Shown here one piece after another: positions 1-14,107 of a stretch of DNA of 17,242 nt; positions within the stretch are counted from its first letter, which is position 1, and each line of letters begins with the position of its first letter. The stretch comes from a bacterium (GTDB taxonomy: Bacteria; SAR324; XYD2-FULL-50-16). The translations under genes and the position numbers were made by a program. Location of the stretch: positions 1 to 17,242 of the forward strand of contig JAJRZQ010000043.1 of assembly GCA_024275165.1 (NCBI GenBank). Direction: 5' to 3'. The notes beneath the pieces are model-generated. The model was not told where the DNA came from. It ran no database searches and saw nothing but the letters and a program-made list of their open reading frames with translations.

Positions 1-88
1 AACAAACAATATGGGCCTGAAGGCCAAAGCCCAAGAACTGGGGGTGGATGAGGACTCTTTAAAGGAGTTTGTCGCCCGTCAGCAAAAG
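1..88 (+). repeat. Direct repeat, copy 1 (start of small membrane protein gene A)
   Basis: Bases 1-88 match 2249-2336 with a single difference (position 19, G against A). Identity stops abruptly inside the reading frame after the CAGCAAAAG stretch. Homology may continue to the left beyond the window, because copy 2 has matching coding sequence upstream of this point. Confidence 0.95.
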
Positions 89-418
89 GCCAAAGAGCGG
101 AAAAAAGATATTGCGCAACTTGCCGAAGAGTTTGGGGTAGACACAGTTACATTATCTTCTGAATTTCGAATAGGGTCAATATTCAGTATTTCGCTAAATG
201 CATTACTAATTTTTTGTTTTTTAATATTACCGCCTCTTGTGGGTCTATTTGAATTGATAGTGGGCTCTGCGCATAATGATTTGTCTTCAAGTGCTTTAGG
301 TCTATTAGGGTGTTCTCTTTGGCTTTTACTTGGAGTATTTTTTGAAATTCGTCTTTGGAAAAGTTATAAGATTATTCAACGAATGATTCAGAAAAATAAA
401 TCAGCTATTTATGCCTAA
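1..418 (+). CDS. Small two-segment membrane protein, copy A (candidate entry-exclusion protein), 5' partial
   Basis: The reading frame is open from the window edge. By comparison with copy B at 2238-2555 the true start lies about 10 bases outside the window, so only five codons are missing. Seen: a charged, helical N-terminal part containing GLKAKAQELGVDEDSLKEF, a second weakly similar motif (IAQLAEEFGVD) directly after it, then two long hydrophobic stretches separated by a short loop, and a basic C-terminal tail. The first 88 bases are almost identical to copy B, after which the two proteins are unrelated in sequence but alike in layout. Its stop codon overlaps that of the traG-tail remnant on the other strand (415-417 against 416-418), the same geometry as copy B with traG. 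I infer an inner-membrane entry-exclusion protein like TraS or Eex. No family match can be claimed; a phage-exclusion or immunity membrane protein is the alternative. Confidence 0.7.
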   Translation, partial: TNNMGLKAKAQELGVDEDSLKEFVARQQKAKERKKDIAQLAEEFGVDTVTLSSEFRIGSIFSISLNALLIFCFLILPPLVGLFELIVGSAHNDLSSSALGLLGCSLWLLLGVFFEIRLWKSYKIIQRMIQKNKSAIYA

Positions 419-619
419 TTTTTCCTACCAAAGTTTGTTCCAATAATATCATTGAGTGCATTTTCAACAGGAGAATTTCTTGATCGAGAAATGTTTTCAT
501 CATCTTTGTCTGCAAAAATATTTTTCATCATTTTGCTGTAATCACGGTTAAATTGATTCTGGTCTAAAGAGCCTGATCGGCTGTGATAAGTAACTAAATT
601 CTCTTGTTTTTCTCTGAGA
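415..619 (-). pseudogene. traG: Remnant of a second traG 3' end (TraG C-terminal tail)
   Basis: Reading the minus strand from about 619 to a TAG at 415-417 gives 67 codons with no start and no upstream continuation. The peptide resembles the C-terminus of the intact TraG. Both carry KQE, then a tyrosine about six residues later, then FNRDYSKMMK here against FDHAYANMMK in the intact protein, followed by an Asp/Asn/Glu-rich stretch. The two are clearly related but far from identical, so this is a divergent allele and not a recent copy. Homology ends near 619, where the plus-strand ATPase fragment begins, which marks a recombination joint. The stop codon overlaps the stop of membrane gene A exactly as the intact traG stop overlaps that of gene B. 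It is probably not translated in place. Confidence 0.75.
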
Positions 620-1145
620 AACCAAGATCAAGACTTTAGGCGATAAATACAAAGAAGAAATTAAGAAACTGCAAACTAATGCGGCCAATAACATTGGAAT
701 CCCATTTTATATTTATAGCGGTAAAATTCTGCAAAATCACCAAAATGGCTTAGGTGCCCAATTACGCGTCGACCCTTCTAAAAGCAAAACCCCTATGAAA
801 TTAGTTAGTAATTTTGATAGTGATCAAGATATTTTAAACAGCATGAGTTCTGGCCAGCTTTCTGGTATTGTGATGGCCTTAACTTTATCCCTTAATCAAG
901 CCTTTTGTAATACTTCAAAACTGGGGATGCTAATGATTGATGATCCTTTACAAACGATGGATGACATCAACTTAGCCTCTCTCATTGAATTGCTGAGAAG
1001 CGGCTTTAAAGGCAAGCAATTGATCCTCTCAACTCATGAAGACCACTTGTCCCAGCTCATTCAATACCGCTTTAAACAATATGGTTATGTTCCAAAAGTT
1101 ATAAATTTGATGAAGGAAAGTCTAAATTCCACAGAAATTGAATAA
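618..1145 (+). pseudogene. 3' fragment of an SMC/Rad50-like ATPase gene
   Basis: The frame is open from 618 (a TGA precedes it at 615-617) to 1145, about 175 codons, without a plausible start at the left edge; the first ATG is at 795. Seen: a short charged helical piece (end of a coiled coil), an ABC-type signature-like SSGQLSG at about residues 77-83, a Walker B-like LMIDDPLQTMDD at about 106-117, and an STHEDH switch-histidine motif near 138. This is the C-terminal half of the nucleotide-binding head of an SMC/RecF/Rad50-like ATPase; the N-terminal Walker A half is missing. Such ATPases occur in DNA repair and in anti-phage systems (Lamassu LmuB-like proteins are one possibility), but the fragment is too short to choose. 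The truncation coincides with the end of the traG-tail remnant. Confidence 0.7.
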
Positions 1146-1281
1146 AATTTTAACATTATTTTAAGATCGTCCACATTCTCGTTACTGTTATGATTGAGGT
1201 TGCCACCATTTCGTGAGCACCTTAAATCGCTGAGAGAATTATTTATTCTTTTGACAATGGTCATGTAAAAGAAAAATAAGC

Positions 1282-1508
1282 GTGGCGGAGCAGATCAAAG
1301 ACCGATCCAAGTTTCTTTTTTCGCGTCTCTTAAAGGCCTTAGAGGCGGAAATCTAGCAAGAAGCCGTTTCTTTCGGCACCGACGAACTCAACGGAGCCTT
1401 TTTATCTGGGAGGCGATTGAACGGGATTTGGGGGTTTTTGAGCGGGATTTTCACGAGGCGGCCCATCAATCCAGCCTCAACAGTGAATGCTCGATAGCCG
1501 ATTCTTGA
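1282..1508 (+). pseudogene. Decayed ORF of unknown family
   Basis: From a GTG at 1282 the frame reads VAEQIKDRSKFLFSRLLKAL and a few more residues to an in-frame TAG near 1355, then continues as QEAVSFGTDELNGA. A one-base shift near 1400 leads into another protein-like stretch (IWEAIERDLGVFERDFHEAA) ending at TGA 1506-1508. One stop and one shift would be needed to join the parts. Base composition resembles the tra backbone and not the AT-rich neighbours. I do not recognise the family. Confidence 0.35.
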
Positions 1509-1532
1509 ATACTTGCGCTTTTACTATTTTTA

Positions 1533-1561
1533 TTGATTTATGTATTTATGTGTGTTATGGT
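1533..1561 (+). promoter_or_regulatory. Possible hicAB promoter
   Basis: TTGATT at 1533-1538 and TATGGT at 1556-1561 are separated by 17 bases. Both are imperfect matches to sigma-70 boxes in an AT-rich stretch, and the predicted start would leave only a few bases before the hicA ATG, so support is weak. HicAB operons are usually repressed by HicB bound near the promoter; no clear operator is visible. Confidence 0.3.
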
Positions 1562-1575
1562 TTTGATAAAAAAGG

Positions 1576-1767
1576 ATGATAGTGACAAAGCGAGAGATTG
1601 AAAAATACCTCAAGCAAGCTGGGTTTGTAAAACAAGGAGGGGGTAAACACGATCTCTGGTTTAAAGAAGGTGTTGGCTTGATCCCTGTACCTCGCCATAA
1701 GGGAGATATCCCCCTAGGTACGGCGCGCAGTATTTTGCGCCGGGCTAAGATAGACAAAAAAATTTAA
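1576..1767 (+). CDS. hicA: HicA-type toxin (mRNA interferase)
   Basis: The 63-residue length and layout are typical of HicA: a basic N-terminus, a GGGKHDLWF segment with the expected catalytic histidine at residue 25, then VPRHKGDIPLGTARSIL. HicA folds as a small double-stranded-RNA-binding-like domain and cleaves mRNA when not bound by HicB. The ATG at 1576 follows an AAAAAAGG stretch. hicB begins nine bases after the stop, so the two are co-transcribed in the usual toxin-first order. Nothing is missing from the protein, so the pair may be active and act as an addiction module of the element. Function is assigned from family motifs only. Confidence 0.9.
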   Translation: MIVTKREIEKYLKQAGFVKQGGGKHDLWFKEGVGLIPVPRHKGDIPLGTARSILRRAKIDKKI

Positions 1768-1776
1768 GGCAAAACG

Positions 1777-2178
1777 ATGTACTACGCAATTTTTACACAA
1801 ACTATGGAAGGGGTGGAAGTCCGCTTTCCCGATGCACCCAGTGCCATCACCTTTGGCAAGGACTTGGATGAAGCCTATGAAATGGCCGTCGATGTGCTTT
1901 CGGCCATCTTGGCGGCAGGCAAGAAAGGGCAGGATTACCTAACCCCTCATGTCTTAGAAGACCTGCAAAAGGGGATGAAGGAGGGGGAATTGATCTTTCC
2001 GGTGCGACCAGACTCAAAAATTATGGAAAGCTATTCCCCCAAAGAAAGAGTCAGCGTCATGCTGGATAAGGCGTTGCTTTCCGAAATCGACAAAGCCCGA
2101 GCCAACCCCAAGGTAGACCGCTCGAAGTGGCTTGCCAATGCGGCCCATTACTTTTTAGGGCAGCAAAAGGCTACATGA
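1777..2178 (+). CDS. hicB: HicB-type antitoxin with ribbon-helix-helix-like C-terminus
   Basis: 133 residues. The N-terminal half (about 1-60) shows the HicB partial RNase H-like fold pattern (MYYAIFTQTMEGVEVRFPDA, then DLDEAYEMAVDVLSAIL), which binds and blocks HicA. The C-terminal part (about 88-128, ERVSVMLDKALLSEIDKARA and following) looks like a ribbon-helix-helix DNA-binding domain, which would let the protein repress its own operon. AAGG lies seven bases before the ATG. Length is normal for the RHH subgroup of HicB. The gene ends with TGA, 59 bases before the start of membrane protein gene B, which has its own promoter. Confidence 0.9.
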   Translation: MYYAIFTQTMEGVEVRFPDAPSAITFGKDLDEAYEMAVDVLSAILAAGKKGQDYLTPHVLEDLQKGMKEGELIFPVRPDSKIMESYSPKERVSVMLDKALLSEIDKARANPKVDRSKWLANAAHYFLGQQKAT

Positions 2179-2186
2179 GTTCTTTG

Positions 2187-2215
2187 TTGAATTGAGTCAA
2201 ATATTAAGGTATGAT
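2187..2215 (+). promoter_or_regulatory. Sigma-70-like promoter of small membrane protein gene B
   Basis: TTGAAT at 2187-2192 and TATGAT at 2210-2215, spaced by 17 bases, are good -35 and -10 matches. The predicted start, about 2222, lies before a GGAG at 2229-2232 and the ATG at 2238. An in-frame ATG at 2211 overlaps the -10 box, which argues against that earlier start. This would give expression independent of both hicAB and the tra operon. Confidence 0.6.
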
Positions 2216-2237
2216 AACGCAAACTTTTGGAGATATC

Positions 2238-2555
2238 ATGAGCGAGCAAACAAACAATATGGGCCTAAAGGCCAAAGCCCAAGAACTGGGGGTGGATGAG
2301 GACTCTTTAAAGGAGTTTGTCGCCCGTCAGCAAAAGAAAGAAAGGCAAATTCTTCCAGTTGTGAGCTTTAACGATATGTTTCTAGCGAAATATATTAACT
2401 TTATTTTTCCCCCAGTCTTTTTGTTTACATTCATTTTTGGGGGATTTTTTGGCAATTGGGGTTGGCTTTCAATAATTATTTGGGTGGTTTTTGGCTCCTT
2501 ACAACTATTTGAATATAAAAAATATTCAACTATTAGAAAGCTTTATAAAATCTAG
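2238..2555 (+). CDS. Small two-segment membrane protein, copy B (candidate entry-exclusion protein)
   Basis: 105 residues. The start at 2238 is chosen because GGAG lies five bases upstream and a good promoter covers the earlier ATG. Residues 1-33 are nearly the same as copy A (MSEQTNNM followed by GLKAKAQELGVDEDSLKEF). After that the sequence switches to an AT-rich tail encoding two hydrophobic segments with many Phe/Trp residues and a basic end (KKYSTIRKLYKI). Its TAG (2553-2555) overlaps the traG TAG (2552-2554) within one CTAG. Small hydrophobic inner-membrane proteins encoded just past traG are known entry-exclusion proteins (TraS of F, Eex of SXT/R391), which block entry of a second copy by recognising donor TraG. 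Position, size and topology fit; opposite orientation and lack of a recognised family keep this an inference. Confidence 0.75.
   Translation: MSEQTNNMGLKAKAQELGVDEDSLKEFVARQQKKERQILPVVSFNDMFLAKYINFIFPPVFLFTFIFGGFFGNWGWLSIIIWVVFGSLQLFEYKKYSTIRKLYKI
2249..2336 (+). repeat. Direct repeat, copy 2 (start of small membrane protein gene B)
   Basis: Pairs with bases 1-88 (87 of 88 identical). The repeat codes for the conserved N-terminal motif, and sequence similarity stops at its end although the reading frame goes on. The pair could serve as homology for recombination that deletes or exchanges the 2.2 kb between them. Confidence 0.95.
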
Positions 2556-5293
2556 AATATTTTACTGATTTTTTGATCTCCTTTTGTAATTCCATATTCA
2601 TCATTCGCATCTAAAGCTTCATTGTCAGCATTATTTAAAGCCTTCTTCATCATATTTGCATATGCGTGATCAAAAGCATCGCGATTAGGTAAATTTCCAT
2701 TTTTATATGCTTCAAATATAGCCTCTTGTTTTTTAAGTAAGGCACCATAGATCATATTTTTCTGTTCAGTTACGCTTTTATTGCTATAAGTAGACGCTCC
2801 AACATTAATCCCAGCTTTGCCTAGTAATGTATTAGTCGTACTAAGACCAGCTTCTCCTTTTGCCCCCCCAGACTCGCTCATTTGCTTTGAAACAACTTGC
2901 TGAATTGCATTTGCAGCTACCATCGCTTGCCCTTTCATAGCGGCTTGATCTAAATTCCCGTGAGCATCATACAAGTTGTCGGTTAATGCTTTGTCGCCAG
3001 TTCGGGCCATATAAGCTAAGGATTCTGCATCTATATGTGACCCAGCTTTTTGAGTGCGGCTGGTATCCACCTCGCTGGTACGCATGAACTTGCTCGATCG
3101 CACATCGCTTTGGGTATCGCCTGTTTTGGAGCGGGAGGCCTGGGTGGCGTCCAGCACCCCTTCGCCGCTGTTGGCGTTGATGTTGAAATCCATCATCTGC
3201 CCTTCATGCAGGTCCGCGGCAGCGGTTTCCCCCTTGTTTGTTCTCATCAGTTCCTTGGCCCCCGCCAAGGTCGCCGCTGTTAGGGCCATGCTTCCCTTGG
3301 CCATGACCTGTCCCTTTTCGCCCACGGCGAGGCTATCCAGCTTCATGCCCGACTTGATTCCCTGAAGGCCGTTTTTCTTGGCCGCTTGGGCCATCTTGGC
3401 GGTTACCACGCTCCCGCTCGCCTTAAACTTGGCGATCTGCGCTTGGCTGGATAAGCCCACCTTGCTCCAGGCCGCCACTTCTCCCTCTTGACTGCCCAAG
3501 GTGGTGCCGATTTGACCGGCGGACATATCGGCGTTGGCGGCCGCCCGATCGGAAAAACCCATTTCGTGGGCCACCCGGTTTTGGGCGTCGTGAGTGGCGA
3601 GTTTTTGCTGGGCGTCCATGGCCGCCGCTTCCTCGTGGCCGGCCATGTTCTCCGCCTGGGCAGCCCCGTAGGCGATACCCGTCTGTTTTTGGGCCGCGTT
3701 GGCCCGGCCCCGCCGCAGAAAATCGGGGCTCGCGTTGGCCACGGAAACCGAACCAAAGGACTGCTCCAGTTCGGTGAGCTTTTTCCCTTTGCCTTCGATG
3801 GACGCCGCCTGCGCCCCTTGGCTCGCTCCCGCCGTGATGGATCCGGTCATCTGCCCCACGGCGCCGGCCATCAAGGCCCCGGAACTAAACCCGGCTATAC
3901 TGGCAAAGGTGGCCGCCAAGGTCACCCCCAGCATCCGCATGGTGCCGAAGAGCCCCAAGGCCTTGCCCGCAGCGGAAGGGGTGAGCATCATCCCGTCGTA
4001 CCCCGTCTGGTTCATGGCCACCTCGGCAAAATAGTCGATCGCCATATTGATCGTCAGCACATGGGTCACCGCGTCCATGATCCCCCAGAACATGACAAAC
4101 ACAAACAAGCCCATCATCTGGTTGAGCACCTTGCCGTAGACGGGGGTGACCAAAAATAGAGCGAAAATCGGCAGCAAAATAATCGAAAAGGCGATGACGA
4201 TCCCCCGGATAACCGGCATATACTCATTGGCCACCATAAAGGTGGTCATCCCCTGCATCATCATGTTTTGGTTGGCCAAGGCCATAGCCGCCTTGTCGGT
4301 GGAAGAGCTGTTCAGCGCATTGTTGAGAGAAGCCGCCAAATGCGCCTGACGGATATAATCGATCGAGGGCATGGGGTTGCCTTGCGAGGCCGCCAGCTTG
4401 ATGTGCCCGTCGATGATGCTCTTGCAGGAGGCATAGCTGGAGATATCGTCGGGGTCGATCCCCGCCTGCTTGCAGATGGATTTGCGGTATTCCTCAAAGG
4501 TGCCCGGGGACGCGTAATAGTTCTTTATCCCCCCGACCCCGGTCCAGGCCTCGGCGCAGGACATGGCCAGCCCCGTGGGGTTGGCGGCATCGTAAACCAC
4601 GGTGGGAACAATCGGGTCGGCCGCTTGGTCCAAGATACCGATGAAATCGTTGTTTTTGGCGATATTGTTGATGGTCAGGGTGGTGCCCGGTCGTTGCAAC
4701 TCAAAAAGCAGGCAATTGCTCATGTAGCCCTCCAGGCTTTGTTCCCTCAGGCCGTCGCTCATCCCCGGCTTGATCTCGGCGATTTTTTTGATCAAATCGA
4801 ACCCGATGCCCCCCGCCCCGGAACGATAACTCATGGCTTGGTCCAGCACGGAAGTATCCACGATCTCGATAATGGAGCGCTCAATACTGTTGGTCACCCC
4901 TAAAAAAACCACCGCCAGTTCGGGGATCCCGGATATCTCCATGGATTTGTTCAAGACCTTGTCTTGCACCATCAGACTGCCGGTGGGGACAATGGTGCCG
5001 ATATAAACGGTAATTCCCGCGAAAAGAGGGAGCAAGGGGGCAAACCCAAAATCCACCTTGCCCGCCTTGATCCCCCGAATCGCCTGCAAGGCCATGATCC
5101 CCAACCCAGAGGCCACGGCCAGGGGCAGAAAAAGCAAGTGATAGCGGCTATCGGAAAAAATCAGGGCCATGGTCTTTATAGCGTTGGTCACTGGGCCGAA
5201 AGCGTTGTAGACATGGTATTCCATGGTAACGGCCAGGGCTTGGCCGGGTAGGACCGTCAATAAAAACACCAAAGCCAGAGAAGAGCGTTTCAT
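2552..5293 (-). CDS. traG: TraG, mating-pair stabilisation and exclusion protein
   Basis: 913 residues, close to F TraG. The start at 5293 has GGAG seven bases upstream and begins a signal-like segment (MKRSSLALVFLLTVL). The N-terminal third holds membrane segments (YHLLFLPLAVASGLGIMAL; FAPLLPLFAGITVYIGTIV) typical of TraG_N. Further membrane segments lie around residues 390-500, followed by a long soluble, Ala/Gln-rich periplasmic region. TraG acts in pilus assembly, stabilises mating pairs with TraN, and its C-terminal region is the partner of the entry-exclusion protein. Odd: from about residue 748 (below position 3050) the gene turns AT-rich. By hand count G+C is 22/60 at 2641-2700 against 38/60 at 3481-3540, suggesting that the tail came from another source. 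It is last in the operon and ends against membrane gene B with overlapping stops. Confidence 0.93.
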   Translation of the reverse strand: MKRSSLALVFLLTVLPGQALAVTMEYHVYNAFGPVTNAIKTMALIFSDSRYHLLFLPLAVASGLGIMALQAIRGIKAGKVDFGFAPLLPLFAGITVYIGTIVPTGSLMVQDKVLNKSMEISGIPELAVVFLGVTNSIERSIIEIVDTSVLDQAMSYRSGAGGIGFDLIKKIAEIKPGMSDGLREQSLEGYMSNCLLFELQRPGTTLTINNIAKNNDFIGILDQAADPIVPTVVYDAANPTGLAMSCAEAWTGVGGIKNYYASPGTFEEYRKSICKQAGIDPDDISSYASCKSIIDGHIKLAASQGNPMPSIDYIRQAHLAASLNNALNSSSTDKAAMALANQNMMMQGMTTFMVANEYMPVIRGIVIAFSIILLPIFALFLVTPVYGKVLNQMMGLFVFVMFWGIMDAVTHVLTINMAIDYFAEVAMNQTGYDGMMLTPSAAGKALGLFGTMRMLGVTLAATFASIAGFSSGALMAGAVGQMTGSITAGASQGAQAASIEGKGKKLTELEQSFGSVSVANASPDFLRRGRANAAQKQTGIAYGAAQAENMAGHEEAAAMDAQQKLATHDAQNRVAHEMGFSDRAAANADMSAGQIGTTLGSQEGEVAAWSKVGLSSQAQIAKFKASGSVVTAKMAQAAKKNGLQGIKSGMKLDSLAVGEKGQVMAKGSMALTAATLAGAKELMRTNKGETAAADLHEGQMMDFNINANSGEGVLDATQASRSKTGDTQSDVRSSKFMRTSEVDTSRTQKAGSHIDAESLAYMARTGDKALTDNLYDAHGNLDQAAMKGQAMVAANAIQQVVSKQMSESGGAKGEAGLSTTNTLLGKAGINVGASTYSNKSVTEQKNMIYGALLKKQEAIFEAYKNGNLPNRDAFDHAYANMMKKALNNADNEALDANDEYGITKGDQKISKIF

Positions 5294-5747: not shown

Positions 5748-7193
5748 CTACCTCAGCATTTTGGCTTTCATGACGCCTTGGATCTGGGCCTTCTTCTCCT
5801 TGCCGAATCCGCCGATGGTAGAGAGATGAGAAATCTTTTGCTCCGCCTCGGCGATCGCTTGGCCGTATTCGCGGGTAATGCTCTGGTGGAGCTTCCAAGA
5901 GCTATCCTTCAGCCTTGAGAAACCTTCCATGGCCCCGGCCATGATGTGGATCTTGCAGCTGTTGGGTTGCTCGCTCGCCGTGGACTGGATCATGGTTGCC
6001 AGATTGAAGGCTTCCTCGGCGATGGCCGCGACATCCCCCAACATCCGGTAGGCCCGATCCATGGCCCAAAGCCTCCCGAACTCTTCGAGCAGATTGTCTT
6101 CCAACTTGGTGGTGACCGAAATCTGGGCGATCCTACTGACGGGAAAACCGCTGGTTTCCAAAGAGGCCTTTTCCGCAGGGGTCAAGGCTCCCTTGGTCTT
6201 GATTTTGGTCTGGTAGGCGGCCATCACCATTTTGGAATGGGCTTCCAAGTTGTCGCTGACCCCGTTGACCGTGCGCTTGACCTCAACGCATTGGGTGGTG
6301 ATCCCGTCGATCCCAACGATTTTCTGCTCCGCGTGACCGGAGATAAACCGTTGCAGACTCAAGGCCGCGTTGGCCGAGCAGGGCGGGTCGAACTTGACCA
6401 TATAACCGTCCCGCTTTTCGATGATGATGTCTCCAAAAAGCCCTCTTACAAAATCCATGTGCCCGCTCGGATAACCGAGTTTATCCCCGATATGCGAAAG
6501 TACCGAGCCGGAGCGGCCAAAAACATCCCTGACCTGGGCCGGGCAACCGGCCAAAAGCCCGTCGATCTGGGCCGTGGTGACCACCCCCCCGGCGGCTTGA
6601 ATCTTTTCGGTTTCGTCTCTCCAAAAATTCCCCGCCACGCTCTGCTGGAAACTGACAATGTCTTCGGTGATTTGCTTGTTGTCCGAAAGGGGGCTGGCGA
6701 TGGTGGCCACCAAGGCCTTGGAGGCCTTGCATTCATCCAATTGCATTGAATTCATGCTGTCCAGCCAGGTATTGACGCTCTTCATCGTGTCCGCGCAAGA
6801 AGCGCAAAGGGCCTTAAAGGCCAATTCAAAGGCCGCGGCAGGGGCTCCGGCCAGGATCCTTCGTAATTTCGTTTCAAAAAACTTTTGATCCACAAAGCCG
6901 TAGGAGCCCATAAAGATATCGATCCCCCCGCAACCGACCTGGATCTTGGGAGGAGTCAAGGTAAAGAAGGGGTCGCCGCGCAAACGGGTGCGGGAGGAAT
7001 AGCTCCCGGCCGTCAAATACCCGTATTCCGAGCCTTTATACACCCCCGGTTTGGTGACGGTTTGCTGGTCCATCCAGGTATCGAGCAGGTTGGCCGCCTG
7101 GGCGAAACCAGGGAGGATAAATAGGGCCGAGACCAGGCATAGGGCCTTAAAAAGCGTAATATATTCCCGCTGACGCGCCTCTGGTTGTCGCAT
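5748..7193 (-). CDS. traH: TraH, F-pilus assembly protein
   Basis: 481 residues, slightly longer than F TraH. AGGAG precedes the ATG at 7193 with a seven-base spacer. A signal segment (LCLVSALFILPGFAQA) ends near residue 34. The TraH hallmark GCGGIDIFMGSYGFVDQKFF lies at about residues 88-107, followed by a cysteine-containing helical region (ALCASCADTMKSVNTWLDSM) and a long helical C-terminal half ending in basic residues. TraH is periplasmic/outer-membrane associated and needed for pilus extension with TraF, TraW, TraU and TrbC. The start overlaps the end of the upstream barrel-like gene by 47 bases, so the two are translationally linked. Confidence 0.93.
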   Translation of the reverse strand: MRQPEARQREYITLFKALCLVSALFILPGFAQAANLLDTWMDQQTVTKPGVYKGSEYGYLTAGSYSSRTRLRGDPFFTLTPPKIQVGCGGIDIFMGSYGFVDQKFFETKLRRILAGAPAAAFELAFKALCASCADTMKSVNTWLDSMNSMQLDECKASKALVATIASPLSDNKQITEDIVSFQQSVAGNFWRDETEKIQAAGGVVTTAQIDGLLAGCPAQVRDVFGRSGSVLSHIGDKLGYPSGHMDFVRGLFGDIIIEKRDGYMVKFDPPCSANAALSLQRFISGHAEQKIVGIDGITTQCVEVKRTVNGVSDNLEAHSKMVMAAYQTKIKTKGALTPAEKASLETSGFPVSRIAQISVTTKLEDNLLEEFGRLWAMDRAYRMLGDVAAIAEEAFNLATMIQSTASEQPNSCKIHIMAGAMEGFSRLKDSSWKLHQSITREYGQAIAEAEQKISHLSTIGGFGKEKKAQIQGVMKAKMLR

Positions 7194-7851
7194 TGCTCGC
7201 TCCTGTTTGGGTTTGAATCAAGGCTTTCCCTGCGCTGCTTAAAGGAGAAGAGCCGTAGATTTGCAATTCCAGCCCTGAATCCTTCCCCGGGATCCGCACG
7301 CCCGAGGCGAACTCAAAGGAATGGGCCAGCATTTTTGGGGTTTGTCGGTCGCTGTACCCGTTGCCCGCCAATTCGATAAAGAGATCCAAGCCCTTGACTT
7401 CCGCCTGATACCCGAAGCTGATTCGGTTCCAGCGGGGTTTCAGATCCTTCGACAGCTCCCTCGTATGCCGGAATTCCGTAAAAAACCCCTCCCCATCGTC
7501 TAAAACCAAGGCCAAGCGCGATTCATCGCGGTTGGACCGGGTCGAGTTTTGCGCGACCTCGTAACTCGTGAAGCCCAACTCGAACCAGGTCCCCCTAAAA
7601 CCGACAAAGCCGCCCGTCTCGCTGTAGTTTTCCTTAGCGGCGGTCTCGTTCCAAAGGTTGATCGCCGCTCCTTGTAAGTTGAAACCAAAATGACTCAACA
7701 GACCCGTACCTGGGTGGATCGCCTCTCCCCTGCGAATGGGGTCGCTTTGCAGTTTGGCCCCGAGGGCCAAGGAGTTCTCTCCCGCGACCAAGGGGCTTGT
7801 AAAACCCCAAACCCCCAACAGCAGCAAGAGTCGTAAACTTTTTCCTTTCAT
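7147..7851 (-). CDS. Exported protein, probable small outer-membrane beta-barrel
   Basis: 234 residues with a signal peptide (MKGKSLRLLLLLGVWGF, cleavage probably after LVA at residue 23). The remainder shows repeated amphipathic strand-like stretches (GGFVGFRGTWFELGF; ISFGYQAEVKGLDLFIELAG; HSFEFASGVRI; GLELQIYG) and ends in ASAGIYYAF. A C-terminal aromatic residue in such a strand is the usual signal for outer-membrane barrel insertion. No F-plasmid tra gene at this position encodes a barrel; traV-like lipoproteins are expected after traB. It may anchor or replace part of the outer-membrane core, or have a surface role. The sequence just before its start is a partial copy of the traB end. 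I do not recognise the family, and the barrel call is from the strand pattern only. Confidence 0.75.
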   Translation of the reverse strand: MKGKSLRLLLLLGVWGFTSPLVAGENSLALGAKLQSDPIRRGEAIHPGTGLLSHFGFNLQGAAINLWNETAAKENYSETGGFVGFRGTWFELGFTSYEVAQNSTRSNRDESRLALVLDDGEGFFTEFRHTRELSKDLKPRWNRISFGYQAEVKGLDLFIELAGNGYSDRQTPKMLAHSFEFASGVRIPGKDSGLELQIYGSSPLSSAGKALIQTQTGASNATTRGASAGIYYAF

Positions 7852-7886
7852 ATCTCTGTTTCCCTTAAGATTGAGTTCAACGCCTT
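7844..7886 (-). repeat. Partial copy of the traB 3' end and following start
   Basis: On the minus strand this reads AAGGCGTTGAACTCAATC and on through the ATG of the barrel-like gene. It matches 8250-8291 (traB end plus the start of the next ORF) at 38 of 42 positions plus one inserted base. Removing that C would restore the traB-like ending VELNLRETEI followed by a stop. Confidence 0.85.
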
Positions 7887-8257
7887 GGGCGCGGGTCAGA
7901 CCCGCCCCTTTGCCGATGAGGACGCTCCAACCCCCTCAGGCGCGGATCGACAAATCGGTGGTTTGGAAAAGGCCCCTGAAAGCGGCTTTGGGGATGTTGT
8001 TTATCGCGCCGCTCTTTTGCGTGCCTCCGCTTTTTTTGCCGAGGGCGAAGCGTCCCAAGCGGCTTTTTGTTTCCTAAAATCTTGTGGTTGAGCCGCTGCC
8101 CCGGGTTGAAATAAAGAGGCCTTTTTTTGTGAATCCGGTGGGCCCGCGGTTTGGCCTCCACCACAAAAAGACGCTCTCGCGCCTCAAGGGGCGCGAGCGA
8201 GCCGAAACAGCTCCAAAGCAGCAGCAAGCGCAGGATTTGTTGGTTTTTTCTTTTCAT
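7877..8257 (-). pseudogene. Degenerate ORF after traB (traV position), with a decayed traB-end copy
   Basis: The frame from ATG 8257 (overlapping the traB stop as ATGA) gives 126 residues. It begins as an exported protein (QQILRLLLLWSCFGSLAPLE) similar to the start of the next gene (SLRLLLLLGVWGFTSPLVA). It then turns into an Arg/His/Pro/Gln-rich stretch typical of an out-of-frame read. In the next frame the distal half reads SGAINNIPKAAFRGLFQTTD and, past one stop, VLIGKGAGLTRAQGVELN. This resembles the traB C-terminus (SGA, KAA, F, GK, GVEL in the same order). LWSC near residue 17 could be a weak lipobox, so a broken traV is possible. Most likely a recombination scar joining part of one gene to a second traB end. 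Confidence 0.5.
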
Positions 8258-8291
8258 ATCTCCGTTTCCCTTAAATGGAGTTCCACGCCTT
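8250..8291 (-). repeat. traB 3' end, original copy of the short duplication
   Basis: Codes for the last residues of TraB (KGVELHLRETEI), its stop, and the overlapping start of the next ORF. It is repeated about 405 bases further on at 7844-7886. Confidence 0.85.
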
Positions 8292-9471
8292 TGGTAATGA
8301 TCACATCCACCCTTTTTCCCGGAAGGATCTCCACCACCGGCAGGCTTTGCTTGGCAAGAGCGATATAAAACTTCTCCAAGGCCCCGGCGGCCTTGGCCAA
8401 TCCCTGACCCATCGCCCCGCTCGCGATCTGCTTGCTGTTGAGGAATTGGGTCTTTTGTCCCGTGGTGTCGGTCGTCACCTGTTGGGCCGATTGGGCGGAC
8501 AACTCCCCAAAGCCGCCGATAAAACCGGCCAAGGCGGAGCGGGCCAGGCTGGCCCCGAACTTGGCCACCACCTTGCCCGCCAGCCCCATGTTCCCGTCGG
8601 CGTCCACCACAAAGCCCTCAATCTTCTCCTCAATGACCGCCTTGCCCCGAAGGCTCACGCAACTGATGGAACTGACGCGCATCTCCACCCGTTCGGTGGC
8701 CAAACTCCCAAAGCCCTCGGCAATGATGAAGCAGCCCTTGAGGTTCTTTTTCAGGTTGTTGGGCAAGATCGCCGGCAGGCTGACCCGCAAAATCACCGGT
8801 TGGGGGTTGCCCATCCCCTCCTCGCTGACCAAGGCGTGTACCCCGCTCAAGGTGGTCGCCTTTAAAATGGAGACCGGCAGATAAGTGCTCAAATTGGTTT
8901 TTTGGATTTTCTTTTTTTTGCGCTCGCGGCTACCGGCTTGGACCACCGTCGCTCCGCCGGCCCAGGCTTTCTGCTCCGGCAGGGCGCCATTTTTGGCGCC
9001 CTGCCGGTTCGTCGCGACGGAAAACCCGCCTCCTCCGGGCACATACCTGACGGCGTTGTTGGCGAAAGCCCCACCAGGGGCGGGAGGAAAAGCCCCTCCT
9101 TTTTTCGGCGCGGACCCGCTGGCCGAAGCAGGCCCTCCTCTGGCCAGGTTCGTTTTGATACGGCTCAACTCCATTCGCAGCTTTTGCATCTCCTCTCCCA
9201 TCGCGCCTATCTTGGCGGTTCGCTCTGCCCGCTCTTTTTTAAGCATCTCGTTGGCTTGGGCGAAAATCGACTTCTCCAAGGCCCGATTGTCAAAATGGAT
9301 CACCCGTTGCTTCACCACCTTGGTCGGGGCGACCTCCACCTGCTCGCCCCCCGAAAAAAGCGCCAGAAAAGTCACGCTGCCCACAAGACCGAAGAGAACA
9401 TAGGTTTTTTTCTGTTTCGGGGATTGATCCATCCACCAGGTCTTGATTTTTTCTGGTAACGCCGGATTCAT
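8254..9471 (-). CDS. traB: TraB, VirB10-like envelope-spanning core protein
   Basis: 405 residues against 475 in F. AAGGAG lies just before the ATG at 9471. Layout: short cytoplasmic N-terminus, one membrane segment (about residues 23-40, TYVLFGLVGSVTFLALFSG), a coiled-coil-like charged helix (about 62-110), a Gly/Ala/Pro-rich linker (about 110-165), then the VirB10-like beta domain (about 185-400) with GVHALVSEEG, a conserved Cys pair (GCFIIAEGFG and SSISCVSLRG) and GFVVDADGNMGLAGKV. TraB links the inner-membrane motor to the outer-membrane core with TraK and TraV. It follows traK by 17 bases. A perfect hairpin lies in the linker region. Its end is partly duplicated downstream. Confidence 0.93.
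   Translation of the reverse strand: MNPALPEKIKTWWMDQSPKQKKTYVLFGLVGSVTFLALFSGGEQVEVAPTKVVKQRVIHFDNRALEKSIFAQANEMLKKERAERTAKIGAMGEEMQKLRMELSRIKTNLARGGPASASGSAPKKGGAFPPAPGGAFANNAVRYVPGGGGFSVATNRQGAKNGALPEQKAWAGGATVVQAGSRERKKKKIQKTNLSTYLPVSILKATTLSGVHALVSEEGMGNPQPVILRVSLPAILPNNLKKNLKGCFIIAEGFGSLATERVEMRVSSISCVSLRGKAVIEEKIEGFVVDADGNMGLAGKVVAKFGASLARSALAGFIGGFGELSAQSAQQVTTDTTGQKTQFLNSKQIASGAMGQGLAKAAGALEKFYIALAKQSLPVVEILPGKRVDVIITKGVELHLRETEI
8976..9007. repeat. Perfect 14-bp inverted repeat inside traB
   Basis: CCGGCAGGGCGCCA, a TTTT loop, then TGGCGCCCTGCCGG. On the coding strand the loop is AAAA. No T-run follows on either strand, so it is not a classical terminator. It lies in the part of traB coding for the flexible linker, about residues 155-165. 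Confidence 0.9.
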
Positions 9472-9488
9472 TCGCTCTCCTTGGCCTG

Positions 9489-10295
9489 CTATGGCCGAGG
9501 CTTTCGAGTCAAGGAGAGGCCCCTTTGCTCGTTCACCTTTTCCACCACCAACAAACGGGCCGATTGCCCCTTTTCCAAGGTCATGGGGTCGATGCTGATG
9601 GCCACCGGGTTTTTGGAAATCTCGATTTTCCTAAAATCCATCTCCCGAAGCCTCAAGGTCGGCCCCTTGTTGTTCACCACGAACTCCAAGAGTCGGTATC
9701 CCTCCCCGTCTTGGGAAATCGAGCGTTTGAGTTCGATCCGCAAATGCTCAAAGAGCCGGATCTCCTCTTTCTTCAGCACCGTGGACCAGCTTTGTGGGAT
9801 TTGATCTTGGTAGACCTTTTTGATCATCCTCAAGATCCGCTCGTCTTCGCTTAAGTATCGATTCTTCCTGCGATTCGCCTCGATTCTGTCCAAGCCCCCT
9901 CTGGTCAAGAGCACGGTTTTGGAGGGGACGGCCTTTGGCTTGGCCAGTATCTTGTACATGGCGCCATCGCAGTCGATAATAAACTCGCCGCGCCTCCAGA
10001 CCAGCGTTCGCTTGCCATTGACCTGACTTTGCAAAAAGGTGATGTAGGCGCTTTCCCCCCGGATGATCACATCGATGTTCTTCTCTTTTTGAAAGATCAC
10101 ATCCTTGATGGTTCGGCCCTTACAGCGCACCCAATTGGTATCGACATTGGACAGGATGATCTCGTTGGTGACATCGGGATAAACCCGCGACGGAGTATGG
10201 GAGCTCGCCTTTGACTTGGCCAGGGCCGCCGGTCCAAGGCCGCCCAAAAGCAATAAGCCCGCCAGGCGCAGAGCAAAATTAAGGTTCTTGTTCAT
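9489..10295 (-). CDS. traK: TraK, secretin-like outer-membrane core protein
   Basis: 268 residues from the ATG at 10295, chosen because GGAG sits upstream and a signal peptide follows at once (MNKNLNFALRLAGLLLLGGL, cleavage near ALA, residue 26). The mature part is beta-rich (PDVTNEIILSNVDTNWV; IIRGESAYITFL; FIIDCDGAMYKILAKP), as in TraK, a VirB9-like protein that forms the outer-membrane ring with TraV and TraB. Length is close to F TraK (242). The start overlaps the traE end by 17 bases. Confidence 0.88.
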   Translation of the reverse strand: MNKNLNFALRLAGLLLLGGLGPAALAKSKASSHTPSRVYPDVTNEIILSNVDTNWVRCKGRTIKDVIFQKEKNIDVIIRGESAYITFLQSQVNGKRTLVWRRGEFIIDCDGAMYKILAKPKAVPSKTVLLTRGGLDRIEANRRKNRYLSEDERILRMIKKVYQDQIPQSWSTVLKKEEIRLFEHLRIELKRSISQDGEGYRLLEFVVNNKGPTLRLREMDFRKIEISKNPVAISIDPMTLEKGQSARLLVVEKVNEQRGLSLTRKPRP

Positions 10296-10839
10296 TCCAC
10301 ATCTCCAAGATGAAAAAACGCCCCGCCTCAATCCTGTAGCGGATTTTCAGTTCCGCCTCCTTCGGGGGCTGAGCCGTGGCGTTTAGGGTTTGCAGGATCA
10401 CTCCCTTGAGGGTTAAGAGATCCTCTTGAACGGCAATCTCTTTTTTGGGATGAAAGCTTTGGGTCAAGTTGGCCGTCTGCGCCCCCATCGCCATGTCCTC
10501 ATAGACCTTTCTCGCGTCGGCGTAAGCGTCGGCGTGATACAACTCCAACAATTCGGCTAATTGCCCTTGGACCGTGGAAGGGGTAAAGGTAAAGGCCAAG
10601 CCCGTTACATACCGGGCCATCATCCGTAAATAAGCCCCGTCCGCCCGGTGGTGGTTCACCCGCGCCTGCTCGGTGAGGCTCGCGGGAGGCACCAAGATCA
10701 CCGTCTTGTCGTTCAGGCAGGCCGAGCTTTGCAGCAGGTTGAACAGGCTGACTGCCACCAGACAAAGCATCCCGAACCTATAAAGGCTGACTTTCTTCTT
10801 CAGTCGGTCCATGTGGCTTAAGAATTCCGTCGCTTTCAT
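10279..10839 (-). CDS. traE: TraE, VirB8-like inner-membrane protein
   Basis: 186 residues from the ATG at 10839, which overlaps the traL stop as ATGA. F TraE is 188 residues. One N-terminal membrane segment (YRFGMLCLVAVSLFNLLQ, about residues 19-36) precedes a periplasmic domain with VILVPPASLTEQARV and ADGAYLRMMARYVTGLAFTF, the characteristic TraE pattern. It ends with a beta-rich stretch (ELKIRYRIEAGRFFILEMWN). TraE is a VirB8-like scaffold subunit at the inner membrane. Confidence 0.92.
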   Translation of the reverse strand: MKATEFLSHMDRLKKKVSLYRFGMLCLVAVSLFNLLQSSACLNDKTVILVPPASLTEQARVNHHRADGAYLRMMARYVTGLAFTFTPSTVQGQLAELLELYHADAYADARKVYEDMAMGAQTANLTQSFHPKKEIAVQEDLLTLKGVILQTLNATAQPPKEAELKIRYRIEAGRFFILEMWNEQEP

Positions 10840-11111
10840 TCGATGAACTCCTCTTGAAAAATAAAACAATCCGGGTACCCCTCAAAACCGCTCAGCCCGG
10901 CGTAATAAAAAACATGGACGCTGAATCCCTTGGGGAAATCGCTCTTGATCTTTTCGTACCCCCAGGGGGCTATCCCCACCATCGGCCAAAACCAAGCGCT
11001 CAAGGTGATGGCGAAGATCAAGAACAAAATCGTTAAGATAAAGGTGTCCACTTCCCAAAAGAGGACCATGATCGGCTTGTTTAGGTAGGTGGGCACCTTT
11101 AGGCTCTCCAT
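10836..11111 (-). CDS. traL: TraL, VirB3-like inner-membrane protein
   Basis: 91 residues, as in F. The start at ATG 11111 leaves a two-base gap after the pilin stop; a TTG at 11117 overlapping that stop would add two residues. The TraL signature VPTYLNKPIMVLFWEVDTF is followed by hydrophobic segments (ILTILFLIFAITLSAWFWPM). VirB3-like proteins act with the VirB4-like ATPase TraC at the base of the pilus. No clear ribosome-binding site is seen, so translation probably depends on the pilin gene upstream. Confidence 0.92.
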   Translation of the reverse strand: MESLKVPTYLNKPIMVLFWEVDTFILTILFLIFAITLSAWFWPMVGIAPWGYEKIKSDFPKGFSVHVFYYAGLSGFEGYPDCFIFQEEFIE

Positions 11112-11113
11112 GC

Positions 11114-11458
11114 TCAATACAACAGATCCAGGGTCGCCCCCATGCTGTTGACGATGGAGGGCATCTTGCCGATGACGGCTCCGCCCCCGATGGCCATCGC
11201 CGCCGGCATGATCTGTTGCTTAAAGAGCAAACCGGCCCCCCCGACCCCGCCTAAAACCACGATGGAGTTGCCGATGGGGCCGTTCAGTCCCTTGTTGACC
11301 ACCATGTCGTAAACATCATAGCCCAGTTGCCCTTGGGCCGGGACGGGCAAGGCGTAGGCCGCCTCCCCCAACGCCATCACCGCAAGGCTCATGACAACAA
11401 AAGGAAGGTATTTTTGGGCGAACCCGCAAACCCTCCGCCCTTTATTTTGCCTTTTCAT
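11114..11458 (-). CDS. traA: TraA-like pilin precursor
   Basis: 114 residues from the ATG at 11458, fixed by a strong upstream AGGAGGA. A long basic leader (MKRQNKGRRV, then hydrophobic to AYA at residue 36) is followed by a mature region of about 73-78 residues beginning near LPVPA/QGQ, with two hydrophobic segments (SIVVLGGVGGAGLLF; IMPAAMAIGGGAVIG) around a short FKQQ loop. This is the F-type pilin layout. Cleavage may be after residue 36 or 41. The gene opens the A-L-E-K-B block, and its strong ribosome-binding site, unlike most neighbours, fits a protein needed in many copies. An S26 peptidase that could process it is encoded three genes upstream. Confidence 0.9.
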   Translation of the reverse strand: MKRQNKGRRVCGFAQKYLPFVVMSLAVMALGEAAYALPVPAQGQLGYDVYDMVVNKGLNGPIGNSIVVLGGVGGAGLLFKQQIMPAAMAIGGGAVIGKMPSIVNSMGATLDLLY

Positions 11459-11678
11459 GGTTGGATTCCTCCTGAAAAAGGGGGTAGGGAGGCTTGGCCT
11501 CCCCACCCCGGATGGTGAAGGCGCGAACCAAAGGCCTCATTGCCTTGGGCTCGCGACCCTCACAAACGACGAAGGCCTTGCCCGGTAAAAATCGGGCTAA
11601 GTCCGTCTCCGGCTTCCACCGCGGATATTGGACGATCGCCAAGACCCAAAAGGGGGCTAAGAGGATATATCGCTTCAT
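11442..11678 (-). CDS. 78-residue protein between traF and pilin gene, unknown
   Basis: Its ATG overlaps the traF stop as ATGA, and its end runs 17 bases into the pilin gene, so it is built into the operon. It begins MKRYILLAPFWVLAIVQYPR, a short hydrophobic anchor or signal, followed by RFLPGKAFVVCEGREP and a basic, proline-containing tail. One cysteine. No match to F TraP, TraQ, TraX or TrbD is apparent. The position just before the pilin gene suggests a role in pilin membrane insertion or processing, but this is a guess from location. Confidence 0.6.
   Translation of the reverse strand: MKRYILLAPFWVLAIVQYPRWKPETDLARFLPGKAFVVCEGREPKAMRPLVRAFTIRGGEAKPPYPLFQEESNHEKAK
11467..11473 (-). promoter_or_regulatory. 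Strong ribosome-binding site of the pilin gene
   Basis: AGGAGGA on the minus strand, eight bases before the ATG at 11458. It decides the pilin start over an in-frame upstream codon at 11506 and is the best Shine-Dalgarno match in the operon. Confidence 0.8.
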
Positions 11679-12523
11679 TTTTTCGCTCCTTCATAGATGG
11701 TGGGATCCATCACCCCGCCTCGTTCCTGTTCCAACATGTAATATTCTTCCGGCTCAATCAGGCCTTCCTTGACCCGCAGCTTGCGATAAATCCGGTCCAC
11801 CAGTTGGTTGACCCCCACGACCCCGATGGCGATCACCTCTTCGTTGGGGTCGCCGTCCTTGAGCAACACCAAGGTGGGTGTCACCTGAAGGTTGAAAAAA
11901 GCGGCGATATCGGGCCGCTCGTCCACATCCACGGTTTCGATGCGCCAAGCGGGATAGGACCTGCGAAACTGCCGCAAAATCCCCTCTTGGGTGCGGCAGT
12001 GAACGCAATGGCGCGAATGCAAAAAAACCAATCCGTAGTTGCCCGCCTGGGCATGGAGCAGGCCTTCGATCTCTGCTTGGCGCTTTATGTAGGTCGCCTT
12101 GCGCCCCGGATTGTTGGTAGGCATGGCTTGATCCCAAGCTTGGGCCTTGTCCCGGTTTTTTTCATTCAAGTACCCCGCCACGGCGGAAAAGGCGCTGGCC
12201 TTTCTGGCCGCGATATCCTGTATGGTTTGATACCGGGCCACATCTGCCGGTTTCAGGGTCATGACCGCCCACTTTTTGACCTCCTCCAAATGAGCCTGGA
12301 ATGGATCGGGGTGCATCTGCCAAAGCTCCGCGTCGCTGTAACTCCGAGGGGCTTTGGGCGCTGGGTCGGCAGTCGCGTCCGGCTGTGTTGCCCGCGGTTT
12401 CTGCCAATTGTAATTAAACCACCCGTCGCTGCGGTCTCCCACCGCGGCCCAAGCTGTTTGGCTCCATAAGGCCCAGCTCAGAAGGATTGCCCAAAATTTG
12501 CCGAAAGCGCTAAAAGCGCGCAT
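11675..12523 (-). CDS. traF: TraF, F-type thioredoxin-fold pilus assembly protein
   Basis: 282 residues with a signal peptide ending near AWA (residue 26). A middle helical region (WQMHPDPFQAHLEEVKKWAV) is the usual TraF N-terminal part. The C-terminal half is a thioredoxin fold: GNYGLVFLHSRHCVHC places a CVHC pair at residues 173-176 and VTPT supplies the cis-proline at 216. F TraF has the fold but lacks the active cysteine pair, relying on TrbB; here the pair is present, so this protein may itself form disulfides in TraN, TraU and TraH. AGGAG lies only two bases from the ATG at 12523, unusually close. The start overlaps the peptidase gene by 14 bases. Confidence 0.9.
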   Translation of the reverse strand: MRAFSAFGKFWAILLSWALWSQTAWAAVGDRSDGWFNYNWQKPRATQPDATADPAPKAPRSYSDAELWQMHPDPFQAHLEEVKKWAVMTLKPADVARYQTIQDIAARKASAFSAVAGYLNEKNRDKAQAWDQAMPTNNPGRKATYIKRQAEIEGLLHAQAGNYGLVFLHSRHCVHCRTQEGILRQFRRSYPAWRIETVDVDERPDIAAFFNLQVTPTLVLLKDGDPNEEVIAIGVVGVNQLVDRIYRKLRVKEGLIEPEEYYMLEQERGGVMDPTIYEGAKK

Positions 12524-12983
12524 AACTCCTCGCCAGTAGTCTCGATTGATCGATCAAGCCGAAATAGCGGCTGTCAAAGCTGTCCTCGCTGTCCCCCATC
12601 ACAAAAAGCTTGCCCTCTGGGATCACGCCCTCAAATTCCACAGGGGGAGGCTCCGTTCTCAATCGGCCCAAAACCTCTCCCTCGCAAACCGCTTGGCCCC
12701 GGCCCACCAACAATCGCTCCCCAGGCAAACAGGCGACTCGCTTCACCAAGATCAATTCCCTGCCCCTTGCCAAACGGGGATCGCTCCAGGGGAAAAACAC
12801 ATAATCCCCCTTTTTCACAACCGGGTAGCGCTCCAAGATAAACCATTTAGGGTGAACCGAATGGCTGGCGTTCCTGGCCACATGAGACCAGCCCCATTGG
12901 GCCAACCCCATCAGCAGCAGGGTCGAACCCCCGGCCACAACAAGGCTACGGATTGCTGAAATGAAGGAAGATTTCTTCGCCAT
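12510..12983 (-). CDS. S26 signal-peptidase-like protein (TraF of RP4 / TrhF type)
   Basis: 157 residues with an N-terminal membrane anchor (about 12-30). S26 motifs in order: ASHSVHP (Ser42, at the catalytic serine position), GDYVFF, LVKRVACLPGE (Lys81, the general base) and GDSEDSFDSRYFG (131-142, the SFDSRYFG box of TraF-type members). Such peptidases mature the pilin; in RP4 the TraF peptidase also joins the pilin ends into a circle. This gene shares the name TraF with the unrelated thioredoxin-fold TraF that follows it, hence no symbol. No good ribosome-binding site is seen; translation may be coupled to trbI, which it overlaps by 38 bases. Confidence 0.88.
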   Translation of the reverse strand: MAKKSSFISAIRSLVVAGGSTLLLMGLAQWGWSHVARNASHSVHPKWFILERYPVVKKGDYVFFPWSDPRLARGRELILVKRVACLPGERLLVGRGQAVCEGEVLGRLRTEPPPVEFEGVIPEGKLFVMGDSEDSFDSRYFGLIDQSRLLARSYARF

Positions 12984-13314
12984 TGCTGCTGATCACCATG
13001 TCTTTGCGAATTACAATCCGGTTGCCCCTGAGTTGGGACAACAGGTCTTTGATTCGGTCGATCCGGGCCAGCGCCTCTGCTTCTTGGATCTCCCCCTTGG
13101 CCAAGGCGGTCGCCTGTTCTAAATTGAATCCCAAAATATCCGCCGTTACGATCCGGGTAGCGTAAAACTCGTGGTACCCCCAAAGGAGCAAAACCATGAG
13201 GCCGACCTGCCACAGGCCCTTCAGCGCGAAAGGAATCACTTCTTCCGGCAAGGGGAAAAGCTTTTCCCAAATTTGCCGGTCCTTGTCCGCTTTGGTTTGT
13301 TGGGTTTCATTCAT
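12946..13314 (-). CDS. trbI: TrbI-like inner-membrane protein (F type)
   Basis: 122 residues from the ATG at 13314; F TrbI has 128. A charged N-terminus, one membrane segment (about 32-48, LWQVGLMVLLLWGYHEF), then a periplasmic helix (ILGFNLEQATALAKGEIQEA) and a short beta part (NRIVIRKDMVISSNGEEIFL). This fits F TrbI, which affects pilus retraction and is usually encoded near traW. Similarity is in layout more than in exact motifs, so confidence is moderate. The start overlaps the trbC stop by eight bases. Confidence 0.72.
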   Translation of the reverse strand: MNETQQTKADKDRQIWEKLFPLPEEVIPFALKGLWQVGLMVLLLWGYHEFYATRIVTADILGFNLEQATALAKGEIQEAEALARIDRIKDLLSQLRGNRIVIRKDMVISSNGEEIFLHFSNP

Positions 13315-14098
13315 GTCGCTCCTTGAGTTTGGATAAAAGTTCTTTCGGTAGGGTTCCCTTGCCCTCCTCGACAAAGCGCTTCAAGGCGTACTCCAGCTTG
13401 GCGTCGCCCTTGAGGATCAAAACGCTACCCGGAGCGGGCTTGTCTTGCCCGCTCAAGGGGCCCCGAGCCCAAACCATCGCGGGCACCCGTTTTATCGACA
13501 GCGCGCGAAAGGGATTGGGGTTGATGCTCAAATTCCAAAGCTGCTCGCATGCTTCTTCCAACAAGCAGTCGGGGTTTTTCAAAAAAATCTGTCGGCTCCA
13601 CAGCAGGGTTTTGCTCATGGAACCCCCATAAAGCCCCCGCATCGCCACCTCGATTCGCCCGTCTTGGATATTGCCCGCGTCTTTCAAATAGGAACGAATC
13701 GCTTTTTTGGGCATGGAAGAAGAAACCAAGATATAGAGACGCTCTCCCCTACCGGCCTTGGAGGCGGCCCCGGTAAAATCGGGCAGCGTATAAAGCAGGG
13801 CCTCGCCGCTCTTGCCGGCAAAGGGGTTGTCCTTATTTAAGGGGCCGAAAATATCCTTGCCCTGCCTCGCCCGCTCCTTGGCTAAGGCCTCGTCCAGCGC
13901 TGAAATATCCGGGAGCGGGCCTTCGTGAACAAGACGATCCTTCACCTTCATTTGTTGGCCTCTTTTCTCCGCCCTTTGTTGTAGGCTCTTCATCTCTTGG
14001 TTGAGGGAACCTCCTCGCGGCTCTTGGGCAAACGCGATCCAGCCGCAGGCCGTGAGGGCAAAAAAGCAAAAAAGGATCTTGTCGCGCCTGCCGATCAT
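13307..14098 (-). CDS. trbC: TrbC, F-type pilin assembly protein
   Basis: 263 residues; AAGGAG precedes the ATG at 14098. The signal peptide ends near AFA (residue 24). A charged helical region follows (EMKSLQQRAEKRGQQMKVKD), then the TrbC_F core LYILVSSSMPKKAIRSYLKD with GRIEVAMRGLYGG, a cysteine pair (NPDCLLEEACEQLW) and IKRVPAMVWARG, a thioredoxin-like arrangement without a CXXC. It ends basic. TrbC works in the periplasm with TraW, and in some elements the two are fused. It starts nine bases after the traU stop. Confidence 0.9.
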   Translation of the reverse strand: MIGRRDKILFCFFALTACGWIAFAQEPRGGSLNQEMKSLQQRAEKRGQQMKVKDRLVHEGPLPDISALDEALAKERARQGKDIFGPLNKDNPFAGKSGEALLYTLPDFTGAASKAGRGERLYILVSSSMPKKAIRSYLKDAGNIQDGRIEVAMRGLYGGSMSKTLLWSRQIFLKNPDCLLEEACEQLWNLSINPNPFRALSIKRVPAMVWARGPLSGQDKPAPGSVLILKGDAKLEYALKRFVEEGKGTLPKELLSKLKERHE

Positions 14099-14107
14099 TT
14101 TTTCTCC

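Follow-up and report, generated by a model that had tools for sequence, protein, structure and literature searches.

Putative tail-to-tail exchange of TraG and Eex-like ends, and a candidate displaced exclusion cassette, beside traG in a SAR324 genome

Overview

Contig JAJRZQ010000043.1 (C35) belongs to the SAR324 assembly GCA_024275165.1, a 2.69-Mb draft genome of 47 contigs, and was analysed over its entire 17.2 kb (17,242 nucleotides, hereafter the window). A Pfam search of the window proteins revealed a minus-strand transfer module of the F type, with traG as its last gene; beyond traG, the order from left to right is gene A, a stump of a TraG tail, an lmuB fragment, hicAB and gene B. The small membrane proteins A and B are probably entry-exclusion proteins of the Eex/TraS kind. 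Sequence and comparative data further suggest that the convergent 3' ends of such a gene and of traG are swapped as one block, gene A and the stump being a displaced older cassette. Which conjugative elements can coexist in one cell depends on entry exclusion, and a matched pair faces the problem of altering both halves together while preserving the match. To our knowledge, no exclusion gene has been described in SAR324. The features concerned are the following.

1-418, plus strand: gene A, small membrane protein (putative orphan Eex-like protein), open from the contig edge, 138 codons, ATG at 11
1-88: direct repeat, copy 1, shared eex-like 5' end (conserved flank), 99% identical to 2249-2336
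415-617 (end approximate), minus strand: putative displaced traG stump, last ~65 codons, no start codon, 4-nt stop overlap with gene A
616-645: junction between traG stump and lmuB fragment, where both homologies stop abruptly within ~30 nt of each other
630-1145, plus strand: fragment of a Lamassu defence gene, encoding the C-terminus of LmuB (SMC-like) without the N-terminal part (PADLOC LmuB, E 3.2e-30, profile 470-604 of 611)
2238-2555, plus strand: gene B, putative resident Eex-like small membrane protein, 105 amino acids, convergent with traG
2249-2336: direct repeat, copy 2, in gene B, counterpart of 1-88
2337-3055: putative exchanged block, AT-rich 3' part of B and last ~168 traG codons (third-position GC break and GC shift in B)
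2552-5293, minus strand: traG (VirB6-like, F-type), putative donor-side partner, 913 amino acids (PF07916 TraG_N, E 1.5e-46), variable tail 2552-3055

Two convergent pairs with a common 5' end

Gene A faces the stump and gene B faces traG, and in both pairs the stop codons overlap by 4 nt (CTAA at 415-418 and CTAG at 2552-2555), as the first-pass annotation of this DNA had described. Its observation that A and B share their start and differ in their tails also holds: the two genes are identical at 87 of 88 nt (1-88 vs. 2249-2336, a single mismatch), and from base 89 onward they show no DNA similarity at all. The GC content of gene B is 0.49 up to position 2336 and 0.30 beyond, and the A/stump pair shows a like form. 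Protein A has two hydrophobic segments (residues ~69-87 and ~98-116), and its AlphaFold model is helical and of low confidence (predicted local distance difference test score, pLDDT, of 60). A profile of the A/B family found only A and B in their own genome, gene A, itself a profile member, being matched at 5e-45. Very weak matches of A and B to MASE8, Sp-DndD, YidC and others were all far below cut-off and were set aside.

Because the window is a whole contig that starts inside the A/B repeat, the first few codons of gene A and its upstream region are missing. No further copy of the A/B start and no overlap for the far contig end were found in the genome, so the contig could not be extended.

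A composition break in the resident traG

In the window traG, the GC content at third codon positions (GC3) drops at codon 746, from 0.77 in the preceding part to 0.27 in the rest. The change point at this codon (position 3055, support 3049-3070) gives a log-likelihood gain of 72.7, against at most 7.7 in 500 shuffles and 3-10 for the best breaks in the related SAR324 traG genes. As the 3' part of gene B is AT-rich too, the tails of TraG and B would constitute one imported AT-rich block, flanked by the GC-rich traG core on one side and by the shared eex 5' end on the other, with both stop codons inside. The lack of a comparable break in the relatives argues for an exchange in the window.

The stump and its junction with lmuB

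The first-pass annotation had taken the minus-strand peptide encoded at 415-619 for a leftover of a TraG C-terminus, and the two do align significantly, ending to ending (local score 50, shuffle mean 28), a score reached in none of 500 shuffles. With a profile that included the window's own tail, the stump obtained an E-value of 1.3e-4 (next best 0.039) and ranked above all reading frames of the window except traG itself, and above 2,000 shuffles, none of which reached its score. The stump and the window TraG tail also have in common a 5-residue insertion that is absent from three SAR324 relatives. A profile made from the TraG tails of these three relatives, with the window tail left out, was too weak and did not detect the stump, whose identity thus rests on its likeness to the window traG and on its position. 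From these features, the stump appears to be a 5'-truncated TraG relic.

The adjacent segment, 630-1145, is a dead fragment of a defence system, a truncated Lamassu LmuB beside traG. The simplest reading of the junction at 616-645 is a single deletion that would have joined the old traG tail to lmuB.

The A/B family accompanies traG tails in SAR324

The window TraG alone retrieved no relative when used as a query for contigs, while an alignment of TraG cores retrieved four loci. The other SAR324 genomes with homologous traG loci are metagenome-assembled genomes from the same family, within Candidatus Lambdaproteobacteria. Three further traG loci, two in genome G002 and one in genome G004, each have a convergent small membrane gene beside traG, with a 4-nt overlap in two cases and an 18-nt gap in the third. 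The three encoded proteins are strongly similar to each other. Both proteins from G002 show a weak but clear similarity to A (scores of 52-53, with shuffle means near 27), and that of the third relative is marginal (score 39). Among 52 genomes of the phylum, strong matches to the A/B-family profile were limited to five copies, A and B included, and all five lie beside traG tails. This constant convergent position is one reason for reading the family as entry-exclusion proteins, and the conserved neighbourhood supports the pairing of a small membrane protein with a TraG tail that had been proposed from the window.

Two observations concern these loci in their own right. The two traG/eex loci of G002 (L016 on contig C30 and L017 on contig C7) have TraG cores that are 60-92% alike, with only 19-37% at residues ~600-900; this divergence fits two co-resident elements of different exclusion type. 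In G004, the membrane gene convergent with traG (L018, 7338-8066) contains an in-frame partial repeat of its own 5' module (RRFEGMSKEELIE), perhaps the trace of an earlier block insertion.

Coupled exchange in sphingomonad plasmids

In SAR324, coupled TraG/Eex variation is seen by composition only; in sphingomonads, it is seen by divergence. A convergent small gene next to traG was found in plasmids of Desulfosarcina, Sphingobium, Rhizorhabdus and Novosphingobium, where it is annotated, if at all, as hypothetical; the two genes overlap by 4 nt or 17 nt, or are separated by 2-8 nt. In the gammaproteobacterial plasmids with a window-like TraG that were checked (Aeromonas, Escherichia coli, Yersinia, Vibrio), no small membrane gene is both convergent with traG and abutting it.

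For eight sphingomonad plasmids with an intact traG/eex pair, protein distances average 0.65 in Eex and 0.44 in the TraG tail, against 0.20-0.27 in the TraG core. Tail and Eex distances are correlated (Mantel r = 0.80), and remain so once the core distance is removed (partial r = 0.56, P = 0.0002, n = 8). The least conserved parts of the sphingomonad TraG are the linker and the last ~120 residues, low-occupancy N-terminal alignment columns being set apart. For Novosphingobium resinovorum HR1a and SA1, the core has a synonymous divergence (dS) of 0.05 and the tail one of 0.66, the C-terminal and N-terminal parts of Eex being at 0.45 and 0.15, respectively. Between Sphingobium V4 and S. herbicidovorans, dS is 0.66 in the core, saturated in the tail, 2.38 in the C-terminal part of Eex and 0.11 in its N-terminal part. 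In a third, more distant pair, divergence extends across the whole eex gene and the far border is not visible.

A rise in dS confined to the two gene ends points to recombinational replacement rather than to selection on amino acids alone, and its increase across a block spanning both stop codons, followed by a decrease in the 5' half of eex, indicates a joint exchange of the tail halves of the two genes. Block replacement is thus what these two pairs show, and what the composition of the window points to. The correlated divergence and the dS jumps also support the proposal that the tails of the membrane gene and of TraG vary together. As for the initial idea that the whole pair is swapped as a unit, exchange as a single unit stands, given the GC3 break and the dS jumps, but only the 3' halves of both genes move; the exchanged part is flanked by the traG core and by the 5' end of eex, which are shared.

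A second orphan was found on a plasmid of Novosphingobium KACC 22771, where an intact eex of 137 residues faces a TraG tail stump of 138 residues that is 47-59% identical to TraG tails and is cut by a transposase-like gene. This orphan lies ~455 kb away from the main traG, in a plasmid record marked as complete (loci L044 and L065). No recognisable eex was found alongside the main traG, and the distant orphan is the only eex found on this plasmid. This second case is part of the support for reading the A/stump pair as a displaced cassette, with B/traG as the current pair, in agreement with the first-pass annotation. In pKN1 of Sphingobium yanoikuyae, the eex beside traG seems disrupted (L037, 9159-9503): homology continues, and only a short open reading frame (ORF) is annotated.

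Proposed mechanism and its implications

By analogy with F and SXT, the C-terminal tail of the donor TraG would be checked against the Eex of the recipient, a match blocking DNA entry, A and B being the putative inner-membrane exclusion proteins (Eex/TraS-like). A block of ~0.6-0.7 kb, with the conserved parts of traG (its core) and of eex (its 5' end) on either side, would be replaced by one recombination tract. Because the genes are convergent, their 3' ends lie side by side, and a single tract could change donor and recipient specificity together. The overlapping stop codons had been proposed to keep the partners linked; this idea was abandoned: the convergent layout also occurs with 17-nt overlaps or with gaps of 2-53 nt, so a 4-nt overlap is not required to keep the genes linked. 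In the window, two related elements may have been set in tandem by a crossover within their traG cores, before one deletion joined the old traG tail to lmuB. The orphan A may still block relatives that carry the old TraG tail.

More tentatively, elements might in general retain the exclusion cassettes that have been displaced, every exchange of the tail block leaving an intact orphan eex that still excludes former kin. If true, elements would accumulate a layered memory of their past self-identities, like the orphan immunity genes of polymorphic toxin systems. In practice, the signature of a conserved core, a divergent block over two stop codons and a conserved eex 5' end offers a simple way to find exclusion genes and groups where none is annotated.

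Alternative explanations

Several points weigh against the exclusion and displacement scenario. Neither A nor B belongs to a family in Pfam, NCBIfam or PADLOC, and neither has a clear similarity to EexC-type proteins, so that no named Eex/TraS family is matched. The stump is short, and clearly similar to the window's own TraG tail only. The history of A and B in the window depends on a single contig that starts inside the repeat. In addition, the segment of TraG that sets specificity in F (residues 610-673) and the one that diverges most between the EexC group and pAsa4b are internal, not in the C-terminal tail. The lack of a match to named Eex families weighs less, because such families are often mutually unrelated, as are those of IncA/C and SXT (PMC9709138).

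The small membrane genes could instead be unremarkable accessory genes in a recombination hotspot next to traG, the A/B repeat being a plain partial duplication and no TraG tail being matched to them. The presence of hicAB and of the lmuB fragment, which shows that cargo gathers at this site, and the absence of a named family for A and B fit this explanation. It is nevertheless unlikely, as the family lies beside traG at every strong SAR324 match and nowhere else, Eex and the TraG tail diverge jointly with dS jumps limited to the two gene ends, and an orphan eex retains a TraG stump in two unrelated lineages.

It is quite unlikely that strain variants were merged into a chimera during assembly, in which case A and the stump would not be a real linked orphan. 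The contig does start inside a repeat, in a draft of 47 contigs, but we found no repeat able to join segments at ~620; gene A, the stump and the lmuB fragment occur in one copy each in the genome, and a like orphan exists in the plasmid record marked as complete.

We consider it very unlikely that the tails diverged by fast change in place under selection, with no block exchange. Diversifying selection would be expected on both the tail and Eex, and amino-acid change is indeed high in both (nonsynonymous divergence, dN, of 0.09-0.36 for the TraG tail in the sphingomonad pairs). However, dS climbs too, with an abrupt fall at the very same borders (core 0.05 vs. tail 0.66; N-terminal part of Eex 0.11 vs. 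C-terminal part 2.38), and the composition of the window breaks at a single codon.

Finally, we rejected as highly improbable that A is kept in store so that specificity can be switched by programmed recombination between the repeats: the 88-nt near-identical direct repeat is in register, but recombination across it would delete the stump and the region upstream of B rather than give traG its old tail back, the stump (~65 codons) is shorter than the variable tail (~168 codons), and no invertase or archive array was seen.

Other features of the window

1576-1767, plus strand: HicA toxin (PF07927, E 3.1e-12)
1777-2178, plus strand: HicB-like antitoxin (PF15919, E 1.3e-9)
5748-17242, minus strand: rest of the F-type transfer module (TraH, E 2.8e-64; TraN, E 1.6e-15), with traH, then an outer-membrane-like gene without a name, then the remaining tra/trb genes
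within 5748-17242, minus strand: look-alikes of traB, traK, traE, traL, a pilin gene, trbC, traU and traW, assigned by ORF order and size only

The unnamed outer-membrane-like protein (7147-7851) is encoded between traH and traB; the window copy has no Pfam match, and a look-alike occurs at the equivalent position in G002 (L016, 12064-12816). In addition, an element of ~83 nt at 1436-1518 is 94% identical to positions 8609-8690 of contig C24 of the same genome (G000; L002, L019) and ends in CGATTCTTGA. Its two copies lie directly upstream of two different putative toxin-antitoxin operons, hicAB in the window and a ParDE-like pair on C24.

Comparison with known exclusion systems

No account of an orphan traG-tail/eex module, or of a block exchanged tail to tail, turned up in searches of the open-access literature, most subscription papers being outside this scope. 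The genes studied here resemble the TraG/Eex kind by a TraG_N protein in an F-type module, an adjacent gene for a small membrane protein and coupled TraG/Eex variation. A convergent small gene occupies the eexC position in IncA plasmid pRA1 (gap of 37 nt), in an IncC plasmid and in pAsa4b, with gaps of 37-53 nt, eexC being vcrx145 of pVCR94 (PMC11493245). In SXT/R391, the phylogenies of traG and eex are congruent and delimit the exclusion groups (PMC2791158). Both points favour an Eex-like identity for A and B, and the convergent orientation is part of a known kind.

The IncA/IncC EexC/TraG systems (and ACL groups EexD and EexE) are thus alike in that their small membrane gene and traG converge. 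When the EexC group is compared with pAsa4b, a variant of pAsa4 (pAsa4c being EexE), TraG diverges most in an internal segment (~600-660, 31% identity), most of the C-terminal part being 57-73% identical, and no orphan cassette was seen in the plasmids compared. SXT/R391 also pairs its exclusion protein with TraG, and its donor specificity lies in a few internal TraG residues, whereas here the divergent block joins the C-terminus of TraG to that of Eex; no similarity in Eex-family sequence is claimed.

In F/R100, the donor TraG likewise recognises a cognate small inner-membrane protein of the recipient, TraS, and one divergent TraG segment, residues 610-673, sets the specificity (PMC9797247). 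That segment is internal, whereas the import in the window covers codons 746-913 and the variable parts in sphingomonads are the linker and the last ~120 residues; the G002 pair is mixed in this respect, TraG residues ~600-900 diverging most. In F, traS lies downstream of traG in the same direction, so the specificity ends of the two genes are not adjacent.

A parallel for the orphan cassettes comes from contact-dependent inhibition (CDI) and Rhs systems. In these, a variable C-terminal tip is swapped along with its cognate protein, and such swaps leave behind shortened orphan tips together with partner genes that remain intact. The tips of those systems are toxins and the partner proteins the antidotes, whereas here the tip belongs to a DNA-transfer channel and the partner is a putative blocker of DNA entry.

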